In this document: piece by piece, positions 2,471 through 6,665 of the stretch
Position numbering within the stretch: position 1 is the stretch's first letter
Layout: each line of letters starts with the position of its first letter
Source: Verrucomicrobium sp.
GTDB taxonomy: Bacteria > Verrucomicrobiota > Verrucomicrobiia > Limisphaerales > UBA9464
Length of the DNA: 46,198 nt
Assembly: GCA_021298285.1 (NCBI GenBank)
Contig: JAJTFN010000020.1
Location: 1 to 46,198 of the forward strand
Direction of reading: 5' to 3'
Program-made: the position numbers and the translations under genes
The notes under the pieces: model-generated
The model's input: only the letters and a program-made list of their open reading frames with translations
The model's database searches: none
What the model was told of the DNA's origin: nothing

Positions 2471-2866
2471 CTAGAATGGGCAGTGCCGGCAACCGCTGCC
2501 ACAGCAATGGCCCCGGCGCAGGTGGAAGGCACGGGTGAAGACGACCCGCCCGTCCTCGGTGAAGTAGGTGTCCGGCTCGGTGTCAGCGGCTGGGCCGTCC
2601 GGGACCGCCAGGCCCCCGGAGGCGCAGGTGGCGCACAGGCAGTGCAGTCCCCGGAGGGCGAGCGGAATGCGCTCCAGCACCTCGCCCGGAATGGAAACCG
2701 ACTCGCACCAGCACTGTCCCGGCGAGGGATCGGCCCCGCCGGCTCGCGCGCAGGCGTTGGCGCCGCCGCACAACGGACAGACCGACTCGGCGCCGGTTCG
2801 CCCAGCCGCCGGATCGATCGGCTCAGACCCACGGAGACCAGGGCTTTGGACAACGCGGTCGCTCAC
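2471..2866 (-). CDS. Cysteine-rich CWC domain + DUF5522 fusion protein
   Basis: This small cytosolic protein of about 131 residues has two cysteine-rich modules. The first matches the CWC family (CPLCGGANACARA, then GQCWCES and HCLCATCA). The second matches DUF5522 (DTYFTEDGRVVFTRAFHLRRG then HCCGSGCRHCPF at the extreme C-terminus). The spaced CxxC pairs suggest zinc or another metal; no activity is known. The start is taken as GTG at 2866: it has GGAGG five bases upstream and overlaps the stop of the PEP-CTERM gene as GTGA, indicating coupled translation. An ATG at 2899 would add 11 residues inside the upstream gene and has no such signal. The two modules are often separate neighbouring genes in other bacteria, as far as I recall, so the fusion is worth noting. 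Confidence 0.82.
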   Translation of the reverse strand: MSDRVVQSPGLRGSEPIDPAAGRTGAESVCPLCGGANACARAGGADPSPGQCWCESVSIPGEVLERIPLALRGLHCLCATCASGGLAVPDGPAADTEPDTYFTEDGRVVFTRAFHLRRGHCCGSGCRHCPF

Positions 2867-3774
2867 GGTTGCCTCCGGGAAATCCGGCGACCCAGCCATC
2901 CGGCGGCCAATGCCGAAGCCATCAACCCCCAGGTGGTGGGTTCGGGAACGGTGCTCACCAGCGACAAGCCGTCGATGTCGGCCTTGCCGGTCAGGACGTC
3001 GATGCGGATGAACGAGGCCTCGTTCAGCGCCACGGCCTTGCCGGTGGCGTCCAGGGCCCAGTCGAGGTCGAAGGCCGCGCCGCCGGCCGATCCCCGGTAC
3101 AGTTCACGGATCTGCTCCAGGGTCTTGCCGGCGAAGTCCGCCGGCTGGAGGGACAGGCTCATCGGGATGCCGAAGTCCCCGGAACCGTCGGTCGGGTGGT
3201 AGTGGTCCACCTTCGGCGCCCGGGCCGGGTCGAGGACATACCAGGTGGAGCCGTCCGCACTGACGCTGATGCGCTGGGTCCCCGGGTTCGGGTTGAAGAG
3301 CGATCCGTCGGTGGCCGGCGCGCCGATGGGGTTCCAGTTGGCGTCGAACTCGTTGGTCATCAGGAAGCCCGTGCTGCCGAAGACCGTGAAGTCGAGGCCG
3401 AACGGATTGCCTGCGGCGTTGCGGATCGGGGTGTCCCACCGAAGGGTCAACGAGCCCCCGGTGCCGATGCTCACCAGTTGGTCGCGGGTGTAGGGCGGGG
3501 CGAAGGGGGTCACCGGGCCGCCGAAGTCACCGGGGGTCACACGGGAGGGCGCGCCCAGGGCGGCGGCGGCGTTGGTGTAGCCCGGGGAGAATCCGGCACC
3601 CGGTCGGTAATCGACCACGGTCGGGGGATGCTGAGCCTGGAGGTCGGCGGCGGCGAGGATCAGCCCGAGGCTGGCGGTGGAGGCGGCGAGGCGGGGCCTC
3701 GGGGTCGGGGATGCGGGCACGGGCCCGCTTGATCGGGGTCGGATGGGCGACGGACGGATGGATGGTTTCGGCAT
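2863..3774 (-). CDS. PEP-CTERM sorting domain-containing exported protein
   Basis: This 303-residue secreted protein ends in a textbook PEP-CTERM tripartite signal: VPEP, a hydrophobic stretch (TTWGLMASALAAGWLG) and a basic tail (RRISRRQP). The family is recognised by an exosortase (EpsH/XrtA type), which cleaves near the PEP motif and anchors or releases the protein; such proteins are tied to exopolysaccharide or biofilm matrices. The N-terminus has an unusually long Pro/Arg-rich n-region (about 30 residues) before the hydrophobic ASTASLGLILAAADLQA signal core. The body (about residues 50-270) is beta-rich with no catalytic motif I recognise. No exosortase gene is in this window. Its stop overlaps the GTG of the CWC/DUF5522 gene. 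It is divergent from the Rieske gene across a 438-base spacer. Confidence 0.87.
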   Translation of the reverse strand: MPKPSIRPSPIRPRSSGPVPASPTPRPRLAASTASLGLILAAADLQAQHPPTVVDYRPGAGFSPGYTNAAAALGAPSRVTPGDFGGPVTPFAPPYTRDQLVSIGTGGSLTLRWDTPIRNAAGNPFGLDFTVFGSTGFLMTNEFDANWNPIGAPATDGSLFNPNPGTQRISVSADGSTWYVLDPARAPKVDHYHPTDGSGDFGIPMSLSLQPADFAGKTLEQIRELYRGSAGGAAFDLDWALDATGKAVALNEASFIRIDVLTGKADIDGLSLVSTVPEPTTWGLMASALAAGWLGRRISRRQP

Positions 3775-4212
3775 GGTCTCTGGTCACGGCAATCGCCCGC
3801 CGGGTTCCACGGCGGACGGGTTGGGTCAATGGAGACCAGGCCGGAAACGGGGGCGCGCCCGCCCCGGACCTCCGGCGAAACACCGGGTGCCTGAAACGAA
3901 AACGACGCCATCCATCCACCGGCGAAACAGGGAATGAAGGCGTCAGACATTCTGGAATGTTTCCACGCCGGCAAACCGGCCGGCATGGCTGGCCTCATCC
4001 TTCGCTTGGCGGCGAAGCGGTCCCGGCACGAGGCAGGGACCCGACGAGCACCCTTGGCGCGATATCCTGACTCCAGGCTTCGATCCTCTCCCCCGCCTTC
4101 CCGGACTCGCGTCCAGTGGCTGTCTTGTCCGACCAGGGGGTTTGTTGCCTGATACAGTGGCGCAACCGTCGCCGATTCCCACGGCGTTCCCGCACTTCCA
4201 AAGGTGTTTTGA
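3775..4212. other. 438-bp divergent intergenic region
   Basis: This is the longest gene-free stretch in the window, between the divergent PEP-CTERM and Rieske genes, so both promoters should lie here. I see no convincing sigma-70 promoter pair. It contains an inverted repeat with 6-base arms (ACATTC-TG-GAATGT, 3947-3960) and a small hairpin (CTTCGC-TTGGCG-GCGAAG, 4000-4017). Open frames crossing it have no recognisable protein features. Confidence 0.6.
3947..3960. promoter_or_regulatory. Candidate operator palindrome
   Basis: ACATTC and GAATGT form a perfect 6-base inverted repeat with a 2-base spacer, in an AT-richer patch of a GC-rich genome and in a divergent intergenic region. It is about 170 bases upstream of the PEP-CTERM gene and 250 bases upstream of the Rieske gene. 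The size and symmetry fit a dimeric regulator half-site pair. No regulator can be assigned, and a single occurrence is weak evidence. Confidence 0.25.
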
Positions 4213-4815
4213 TTGGTGGGCCCGACCGGTGAGGGTCGACCCATTCAAAGAACGGCGCCTAAAGACCCGAATCATTCCGGCAAATCAAGTGCCAATGCGG
4301 CCCGACTCAGAAATGCTGCGCTCCGACTGGAAAACACCGTCGGTGCCTGCTGCGCGGCCGTCCCGATGCTGTCCGGCCTGGTCGCCTGGCTGGATCCGCT
4401 GGCCCGGGGCGCGGGCGGTGGCGGTTGGATCCAGGTCGCCGACCTGCCGAGCGTGCCTGCCGATGGCACACCGGTGCGGGTCTCGGTCGTCACTGCCCGG
4501 ACGGATGCCTGGACCCGGGAGGCGGCCGTGCCGGTCGGGGTCGTGTACCTGCGGCGCACCGGTCCGTCGGAGGTCGTCGCGCTTCACTCGGTGTGCCCGC
4601 ATGCCGGGTGCTTTGTCGACTACCAGGGGGACCGGAAGGCGTTCTTCTGCCCCTGCCATGACAGCACCTTCGCCGTCGACGGCTCCATCAACGACCCCCG
4701 GTCCCCGAGCCCCAGGCCCATGGACACGCTGGCCGTCGAGGTCCGGGGCCAGGCGGTTTGGCTGCGCTTCCAGAATTTCCGTCCGGGGATCCAGGCGAAG
4801 GTGGCGTTGGCATGA
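4213..4815 (+). CDS. Rieske [2Fe-2S] iron-sulfur protein of a cytochrome bc/b6f-type complex
   Basis: This is the electron-transfer subunit of quinol:cytochrome c oxidoreductase (complex III/b6f type), carrying electrons from quinol at the Qo site to cytochrome c. With the TTG start used here the product is 200 residues. Both cluster boxes are intact: C128-P-H130-A-G-C133 and C146-P-C148-H149, so the two Cys and two His ligands and the disulfide pair are all present. The usual Gly after the second His is Asp (CPCHDS). A moderately hydrophobic N-terminal stretch (about residues 43-65) could anchor it to the membrane, but I see no clear twin-arginine signal. The start is uncertain (TTG 4213 or GTG 4216). 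The stop overlaps the cytochrome b start as ATGA, indicating coupled synthesis. Confidence 0.88.
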   Translation: MVGPTGEGRPIQRTAPKDPNHSGKSSANAARLRNAALRLENTVGACCAAVPMLSGLVAWLDPLARGAGGGGWIQVADLPSVPADGTPVRVSVVTARTDAWTREAAVPVGVVYLRRTGPSEVVALHSVCPHAGCFVDYQGDRKAFFCPCHDSTFAVDGSINDPRSPSPRPMDTLAVEVRGQAVWLRFQNFRPGIQAKVALA

Positions 4816-6665
4816 AGAAACTCATCGACTGGATCGACCAGCGGACCGGCCTGCAAGGCCTGCTGCACGAGGTGCTCTTCGAGCGGATCCCGGGCGGGGC
4901 GCGATGGCGCTACGTGTGGGGTAGCACGCTGAGCTTCTGCTTCTTCGTCCAGATCGTCACCGGGGTGGTGCTCTGGATGGCCTACAGTCCCAGCGCCCAC
5001 TCGGCCTGGGAGAGCGTGTACTACATCCAGCACGAGATGACCGGCGGATGGTTCCTGCGGGGCCTCCACCATTTCGTGGCGCAGGCCATGCATGTGCTGC
5101 TCGTGCTCCACCTGCTGCAGGTGATCATCGACGGCGCGTACAAGGCGCCGCGGGAGGTGAACTACTGGTTCGGCATCGTGCTGCTGATGCTCACCCTCGG
5201 GCTCGGCCTGACCGGCTACCTGCTGCCCTGGGACCAGAAGGGCTTCGGGGCGACCAAGGTGGCCACGAGCCTCATGGGCATCGTCCCGGTCATCGGCCCG
5301 TCGCTCCAGAAGCTGGTGGTCGGCGGCTCGGACTATGGCCACCACACGCTCACCCGCTTCTTCGCGCTGCATGCCGGGGTGCTTCCCGGCCTGATGATCG
5401 CGGCCATCGCCGCCCACGTGGCGTTGTTCCGGCGCCACGGCATCACCGCCAAGCAGCCCTACCGGAAGCCGGAGGCTCGGTTCTGGCCCGACCAGGTCCT
5501 GATGGACGGGGTGGCCTGCCTGGCGGTGCTCGCGACGGTCGTCTACCTCACGGTACGCCATCACGGCGCCGAGTTGCATGCCCCGGCCGACCCCACCCAA
5601 CCGTTCAATGCGGCCCGCCCCGAGTGGTACTTCCTCTTCCTGTTCGAGTTCCTGAAACTCGATTTCCTCACCCAGTGGTTCGGTCATCACGGCGAACTGG
5701 TGGGCGCGATCATCATCCCGGGCCTGGTGATGGGGGTGCTGGCGGCCATGCCCATCCTCGGCAATTGGCGGCTTGGACATCGGTTCAACCTCGGTTTCCT
5801 GGGGGCGATCCTCGTCGGGGCCGTCCTCCTGACCGTCCAATCCCTGCGGAGCGACGCCGGGAACCCGGGCTTCCAGGCGGCCGTGGCGCAGGCGCACGCC
5901 GAAGCCGACCGGATGGTCACCCTGATCCGGGCCGCCGGGGGCATTCCCCGGGATGGCGCGGCCTCGTTGCTCAAGCAGGACCCGGCGACGGTCGGTCCGC
6001 GGCTCTTCGCCCAGCACTGCGCCTCGTGCCACCGCTACGGGGGGCATGACGGCTTGGGGGTCGTCTCCGCCGAGGCCCCGAGCGCCCCGGACCTCCGGGG
6101 ATTCGGCTCCGCCGGGTGGCTGCGGGGCCTGCTCCAGGCCGACACCATCACCAACAGCGCCTATTACGGCGGGACGAAGTTCCGGACCGGCAAGATGGTG
6201 CGGTACGTTCGCGAGAAGTTGCCGAAGCTGCAGGCCTCCGAGCCCGGGGCGCTGGAGTCGATGATCGCAGCCGTGGTCGCCGAGGCCGACCTTCCGGCGG
6301 ATCGGGCGGGCGCCGGCGATCGCGCTGGCACGGTGGAGGCGGGCCGCCGGCATGTGGCGACCACCTTCGGCTGCACCGATTGCCACGCCTTCCGGAAGCC
6401 CGACGAGGAGGCCACCGCGCCGACCCTCACCGGCTGGGCCTCGCGCGACTGGATGGTTCGGTTGGTCGGCGACCCGACGCACGCCGACTTCTACGGCGCG
6501 AGGAACGACCGGATGCCGTCCTACCTGAAGGAAGGCCGCCTTTCCGAGCGGGACATCGGCCTCATCGTCGACTGGATCCGCGGTGACACCGACCCGGCCC
6601 GTTGGCTCCAGGCCCCGGTGGCGACCAAGCCGTCGTCCTCCGGGGTGGCTGGCGCCCGCCCCTGA
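4812..6665 (+). CDS. Cytochrome b6/subunit IV fused to two cytochrome c domains
   Basis: This 617-residue membrane protein combines the cytochrome b core of a bc complex with its own c-type cytochromes. Residues 1-210 are the heme-b binding part. The helix B His pair is 14 apart (LHHFVAQAMHVLLVLH) and the helix D pair is 15 apart (LHAGVLPGLMIAAIAAH), the b6-type rather than mitochondrial spacing. The Qo-site PEWY motif follows in the subunit IV-like half (RPEWYFLFLFEFLKL). After the last membrane segments come two heme c sites, CASCH at 403-407 and CTDCH at 521-525. It can therefore pass electrons from quinol through Rieske to its own hemes. It overlaps the Rieske gene by 4 bases. No separate cytochrome c1/f gene is nearby. 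Fused b-c forms are known in several phyla; the double-c form here may be self-sufficient. Confidence 0.93.
   Translation: MKKLIDWIDQRTGLQGLLHEVLFERIPGGARWRYVWGSTLSFCFFVQIVTGVVLWMAYSPSAHSAWESVYYIQHEMTGGWFLRGLHHFVAQAMHVLLVLHLLQVIIDGAYKAPREVNYWFGIVLLMLTLGLGLTGYLLPWDQKGFGATKVATSLMGIVPVIGPSLQKLVVGGSDYGHHTLTRFFALHAGVLPGLMIAAIAAHVALFRRHGITAKQPYRKPEARFWPDQVLMDGVACLAVLATVVYLTVRHHGAELHAPADPTQPFNAARPEWYFLFLFEFLKLDFLTQWFGHHGELVGAIIIPGLVMGVLAAMPILGNWRLGHRFNLGFLGAILVGAVLLTVQSLRSDAGNPGFQAAVAQAHAEADRMVTLIRAAGGIPRDGAASLLKQDPATVGPRLFAQHCASCHRYGGHDGLGVVSAEAPSAPDLRGFGSAGWLRGLLQADTITNSAYYGGTKFRTGKMVRYVREKLPKLQASEPGALESMIAAVVAEADLPADRAGAGDRAGTVEAGRRHVATTFGCTDCHAFRKPDEEATAPTLTGWASRDWMVRLVGDPTHADFYGARNDRMPSYLKEGRLSERDIGLIVDWIRGDTDPARWLQAPVATKPSSSGVAGARP

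Follow-up and report, generated by a model that had tools for sequence, protein, structure and literature searches.

Analysis of the window, a stretch of 46,198 nucleotides at positions 1 to 46,198 of contig JAJTFN010000020.1 from a Verrucomicrobium sp. (assembly GCA_021298285.1), revealed a two-gene operon on the forward strand. Our analysis makes it probable, with room for doubt, that this operon belongs to a family of fused two-gene menaquinol:cytochrome c reductases, that the copy in the window was damaged by a deletion and that the operon is being lost in the genus. The source genome, a draft assembly whose 244 contigs total 3.37 Mb, is 89% complete. An earlier interpretation made without database searches (the sequence-only reading) had described a two-gene cytochrome bc complex with built-in cytochromes c, and this description is right for the family.

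The second gene of the operon (4812..6665, + strand) encodes a chain of 617 amino acids in which a cytochrome b is fused to two cytochrome c domains, as identified by Pfam and by comparison with orthologues. This open reading frame agrees with the sequence-only reading of a single chain carrying a cytochrome b core and two CxxCH motifs. The Pfam matches in the window were Cytochrome_B (1.7e-40), Cytochrom_C (1.3e-8) and, for the gene upstream, Rieske (1.6e-9). The two genes overlap at ATGA (4812-4815), where the Rieske stop codon overlaps the start of cytochrome b, as had been noted. A subunit IV half had also been assigned to the chain, and this part stands less firmly: the Pfam model for the subunit IV-like C-terminal part scored 16 bits in the window against a cut-off of 20.7 and passed the cut-off in some relatives. 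The top NCBIfam family was cytochrome b6, with 191 bits, far under its cut-off of 325.

An AlphaFold2 model of the protein (m1affe8862868; mean pLDDT 78, pTM 0.73) consists of seven long helices followed by two small helical domains. The helices lie in the cytochrome b core, approximately residues 1-350 (4812..5861, +), and the best Foldseek match was 1zrt_C, the cytochrome b of the Rhodobacter capsulatus bc1 complex (E 9.5e-13, TM 0.65 by target length). Conservation was assessed in 81 fused rows, namely the window and the best 80 of at least 580 encoding stretches. Histidines 86, 87, 100, 187 and 202 occur in all 81 of these best rows; His187 and His202, the heme b ligands of helix D (5370..5417, +), are separated by 14 residues and are also invariant in an alignment of 22 rows, which bears out the earlier statement that the pair is 15 apart. 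The Qo motif (residues 270-273; 5619..5630, +) is PEWY in the window, and in the best rows of at least 580 it is PEWY in 73/81 and PDWY in 8/81, so that one or the other is found in every row. The first c-heme site is CASCH (residues 403-407; 6018..6032, +) and the second is CTDCH (residues 521-525; 6372..6386, +); both cysteines and the histidine of each site are present in 81/81 of the best rows. Met462 (6195-6197, +), conserved in 80/81, and Met568 (6513-6515, +), conserved in 81/81 of these same rows (best of at least 580), are candidates for the sixth ligands of the first and second c heme, respectively.

Comparative analysis of 59 relatives, the genome itself included, found a match of any kind in 34 and the fused form in 30 (E < 1e-100, rows counted by hand; two of the 30 are shortened, apparently by contig ends). 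A scan of named genomes gave at least 580 encoding stretches, of which the best 80 were retained. These best 80 come from Verrucomicrobiota, Gemmatimonadota and one member of Planctomycetota (Phycisphaeraceae). The same fused layout was found in all 80, with two CxxCH motifs in 79 loci and three in one, and this recurrence rules out a sequencing error that joined two genes, which the sequence-only reading had named as what would refute it. Among the same best 80 of at least 580, a Rieske gene is adjacent in 74, and a hand count gave the four-base overlap in 39 of these 74. In a sample of 387 genomes from the phylum, matches occurred in 49; the full-length form was found in the window's own genome only, and the other matches were mainly to the b core or to a c domain. 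Neighbour clustering of the loci revealed no common neighbour besides the Rieske and cytochrome b genes, the third largest cluster being taken as an antisense frame of cytochrome b.

Several observations concern individual loci. The Gemmatimonadota copies (L113-L116, L119, L120, L126, L127 and L129-L132) lie in two separate places among the Verrucomicrobiota copies and need two changes on the tree, a placement as after two transfers between the phyla. The gene also occurs under record titles such as Klebsiella pneumoniae (L109 and a number of loci filed as Akkermansia muciniphila); these copies are nested among Verrucomicrobiota in the tree, and the labels look wrong. L135-L139, L144-L147 and L153 are other cytochromes b of Verrucomicrobiota with a single in-frame CxxCH downstream, which form a related but separate set. 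The cytochrome b matches L154 (G104) and L157 (G327), from two genomes of the phylum, contain 6-7 in-frame TGA codons and are likely to be mitochondrial-type DNA (code 4) contaminating those assemblies.

In L065, L069, L073, L088, L101, L111, L117 and L118 approximately 45 extra residues are present directly after the first CxxCH. This insert of LysM length occurs in 8/80 loci (best 80 of at least 580) and is absent from the window. Pfam LysM scored above its cut-off in six of the eight inserts, below it in L088 and gave no match in L073; in a model of L065 the insert shows the strand-helix-helix-strand order of a LysM-like domain. At least four changes on the tree are needed to explain its occurrence. 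A LysM domain inside the first cytochrome c domain might tie complex III, or its electron exit, to peptidoglycan, a suggestion that we make tentatively and hold to be somewhat doubtful. If true, complex III itself would bear a peptidoglycan-binding hook to the cell wall in some relatives.

The probable damage lies in the Rieske gene. The sequence-only reading had called this gene from a TTG at 4213 (4213..4815, +; Pfam Rieske 1.6e-9). Alignment with four congeners placed this in-frame TTG in former non-coding leader sequence, upstream of a 138-bp deletion relative to the sister genome G016, the junction of which is at 4334..4335 (+). The 138 bp are absent against L003 with flanks aligning well, and pairwise alignments with L004, L006 and L007 each place a gap of much the same size there; the missing sequence is retained in 4/4 congeners compared. 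The Rieske proteins of these four congeners start with a leader in which a twin-arginine motif and a complete membrane helix are present. The window lacks the end of the 5' leader, the start codon of the Rieske gene and approximately 21 codons, and with them the RRxFL twin-arginine motif and the beginning of the membrane helix. The only in-frame ATG ahead of the cluster boxes, at 4366, lies inside the membrane helix. The surviving part (4335..4815, +; by homology to the congeners) comprises the 2Fe-2S domain together with what is left of the membrane helix. Both cluster boxes are present, namely CPHAGC (4594..4611, +), which is CPHAGC or CPHLGC in 74/74 Rieske relatives, and CPCHDS followed by T-F (4648..4665, +), which conforms to CPCHxSxF in 74/74 (both among the best of at least 580). 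The start codon and the twin-arginine motif are intact in relatives. The motif is present in 72/72 Rieske relatives with complete ends, of the 74 in the best 80 loci of at least 580: 71 were counted by pattern and L113 (RRSY) by eye, and the two others, L117 and L118, are truncated at a contig end. Rieske proteins are described as dependent on the Tat system (PMC5449189). With the start codon and the twin-arginine signal deleted, neither normal synthesis nor normal export of the iron-sulfur subunit is to be expected. The operon copy of the window is thus probably damaged. The sequence-only reading had assumed a working complex; in this assembly the Rieske subunit is without its start codon and export signal, and the genome contains an alternative complex III with an oxidase next to it.

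A divergent neighbour outside the operon, a cobalamin riboswitch (4039..4217, - strand; Rfam RF00174, 67.5 bits against a gathering score of 31.5), lies at the 5' side of the Rieske gene and faces a PEP-CTERM-like open reading frame (2863-3774, -). This riboswitch explains why, in some congeners, conservation is higher in the DNA 5' of the Rieske gene than in the gene itself. It was the only match above the curated threshold in the Rfam scan, and weaker matches were taken as chance.

The strongest alternative is that the complex is fully working, the 138-bp gap being an error of the draft assembly and the real Rieske start and signal being normal. We give it roughly one chance in three in our judgement. 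It is favoured by the state of the genome (a draft in 244 contigs) and by selection on both genes. Against G016, the remaining coding part of the Rieske gene gave a pN of 0.063, a pS of 0.36 and a dN/dS of 0.132; cytochrome b gave a dN/dS of 0.078, with one change specific to the window and nine specific to G016. On these dN/dS values neither cytochrome b nor the remaining Rieske coding sequence of the window shows signs of relaxed selection, so either the deletion happened very recently or the draft assembly is wrong at this point. The junction itself speaks against an artefact: it is clean, both sides match G016 at 86-88% and no short repeat that could explain a collapse is visible there by eye.

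The preferred reading is that the operon as a whole is being lost in the genus. Among 18 congeners the operon was found in six, and 12 gave no match. The empty-site comparison covered nine of these 12, with G005, G011 and G012 left out. In four genomes (G014, G017, G010 and G001) the side with the riboswitch and the PEP-CTERM gene is joined to the side with the prepilin and ProC genes by a short operon-free stretch; in the other five (G013, G006, G004, G009 and G008) the stretch compared, no longer than about 2 kb in the case of G006, contains no PEP-CTERM gene and no prepilin gene. Decayed remnants of cytochrome b were detected in two of the short stretches. Compared with the 3' end of the cytochrome b gene of G007, the stretch of G001 scored 89 and that of G010 scored 54, where the highest scores in 1000 shuffles were 41 and 37, respectively; scores were at chance level in G014, in G017 and, against some references, in G010. 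In a flank tree without an outgroup, the operon-free genomes form one clade (99.6/100) beside G007 and G002. With an outgroup as root this clade was not recovered, and G007, which has the operon, stands beside G010, which lacks it; the root is weak (54/43). As the rooted tree is weak and does not recover the operon-free clade, the case for loss rests mainly on the remnants. From these sequence comparisons we conclude that deletion removed the operon from a set of closely related genomes. With its empty sites and decayed remnants, this single genus provides a testable case of how bacteria with two types of complex III drop one of them.

The proposed function of an intact member of the family would be as follows. 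Menaquinol would be oxidised at the PEWY Qo site of cytochrome b. One electron would pass from the 2Fe-2S head of the Rieske protein to the first fused c heme and from there to the second, which would hand it to an oxidase or a periplasmic carrier, and the second electron would cross the membrane via hemes bL and bH. The operon probably belongs to the two-subunit quinol:cytochrome c reductase (complex III) family. As regards the quinone, the genome contains two members of the MqnA/MqnD gene family (PF02621), and MenD gave a sub-threshold match only, so menaquinone is likely to be made by the futalosine route. As a rule, high-potential Rieske proteins have tyrosine at the position where CPCHxSxF has phenylalanine. 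The phenylalanine found in 74/74 relatives (best of at least 580) fits a lowered potential, and hence menaquinol as substrate.

Analysis of the other respiratory genes found one cytochrome b and two Rieske proteins in the genome. The second Rieske match (on C138) is an open reading frame of 158 residues without an obvious export signal; it was read as ferredoxin-like and rejected as a replacement Rieske gene. Cytochrome c1 (PF02167) was not found above the cut-off in the genome, the best score being 20.8 against 22.8 bits in a large open reading frame elsewhere, in agreement with the claim that no separate c1 is present. The genome search also found what the sequence-only reading had proposed to look for, an alternative complex III and terminal oxidases: an alternative complex III cluster (ActD, 3.5e-64) with an adjacent COX1 gene, a separate set for an aa3-type oxidase and a fusion of CcoN and CcoO of a cbb3 oxidase in one open reading frame (L050:9942-12428, on C120). 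Open frames of like size are present at the CcoO matches of many relatives. ActD was found in 55/59 relatives, the genome itself included, in 27/30 with the operon and in 28/29 without it, which shows no link between the two (Fisher p 0.61), and the operon is read as an optional addition to alternative complex III.

The presence of the CcoN-CcoO fusion raises the possibility that the complex serves a cbb3 oxidase as its fixed partner, which we hold to be unlikely. CcoO is not linked to the operon: full-length matches (E <= 1.5e-46; CcoO and ActD were both tallied by hand across the 59 relatives) occur in 16/30 genomes with the operon and 18/29 without it (Fisher p 0.60), and G016 has the operon with no full-length CcoO match. 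A fixed neighbour or oxidase partner was therefore rejected, there being none in the neighbour clustering and no association with cbb3. Still less probable, and very improbable in our estimate, is that the cytochrome b-c-c protein of the window acts alone as a non-bifurcating quinol dehydrogenase without a working Rieske protein. Strong constraint on cytochrome b beside a Rieske gene that has no start would suit this idea, but conservation extends to the Rieske coding part, and we know of no precedent for a lone protein of this kind.

The sequence-only reading had called the complex b6-type from the spacing of the helix D histidines. The spacing is indeed present; as a criterion for the type it is weak, since 14 residues separate the histidines in 111/111 rows other than bc1 (the fused ones drawn from the best 80 of at least 580), the bc1 reference having 13, so that spacing alone does not make a complex b6f. 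The cysteine that binds heme ci in b6 is present in 3/3 b6 references and is replaced by V, I or A in 81/81 fused rows, with no cysteine near this column in any of the 81 (best of at least 580). The b core aligns with b6 and bc1 of solved structures, and against b6 the alignment is ungapped over residues 1-212. The phylogeny of the b core that the sequence-only reading had called for, run against b6 and bc1 references on 112 cores, placed the 81 fused rows (best of at least 580) in one clade of their own (100/100) on a long stem, with the three b6 references and 27 further cytochromes b from the phylum lying outside it; long branches in this tree drew a warning from the program. A b6f-type complex with heme ci, which the helix D spacing, the ungapped b6 alignment and the seven long helices of the model might suggest, is rejected as highly implausible because the heme ci cysteine is missing, the spacing is widespread, a single chain forms the core and the fused rows do not cluster with b6; the earlier emphasis on b6f is accordingly not supported. 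The family instead represents a compact two-gene complex III, present across two phyla, that combines b6-like helix D spacing with a bc1-like lack of heme ci.

In the literature, screened by titles and the beginnings of abstracts, no paper on the fused clade was found, nor any on its biochemistry. The probable damage to the operon by deletion of the Rieske start and signal is, within that literature, unreported. Comparison with known systems showed partial likeness to each. Alternative complex III, present in the same genome, has the same task of passing electrons from quinol to cytochrome c or an oxidase; its subunits are unrelated and include no Rieske protein or cytochrome b. Cytochrome b6f of cyanobacteria and plants (PDB 6rqf, 2zt9 and 7r0w) shares the helix D spacing and aligns without gaps over the b6 part, whereas the family described here has no heme ci cysteine, has a fused core and forms its own clade. 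Proteobacterial bc1 (PDB 1zrt) is the top structural match of the b core and likewise has PEWY at Qo and no heme ci cysteine, but here 14 and not 13 residues separate the helix D histidines and the c hemes are fused. A split b6-type cytochrome b is described for Nitrospina (PMC3578206). Fusion of cytochrome b to c1 is described for Bradyrhizobium and for Planctomycetes (PMC4013037); the Bradyrhizobium type resembles our protein in that a single chain contains both cytochrome b and a c domain, and its c part is described as a cytochrome c1, whereas here two CxxCH domains are present and the genome has no c1 match above the cut-off. The closest description is that of Kuste3096-3097 of Kuenenia stuttgartiensis, in which the c1 equivalent is diheme and fused to cytochrome b (PMC12954380). 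As described there, this system also consists of two genes, with cytochrome b and a two-heme c part in one chain; it comes from a planctomycete anammox bacterium, and the likeness is by description and not by sequence. A Rieske protein with a diheme-c-fused cytochrome b is hence already described in Kuenenia, and the clade reported here is a further member of this type.
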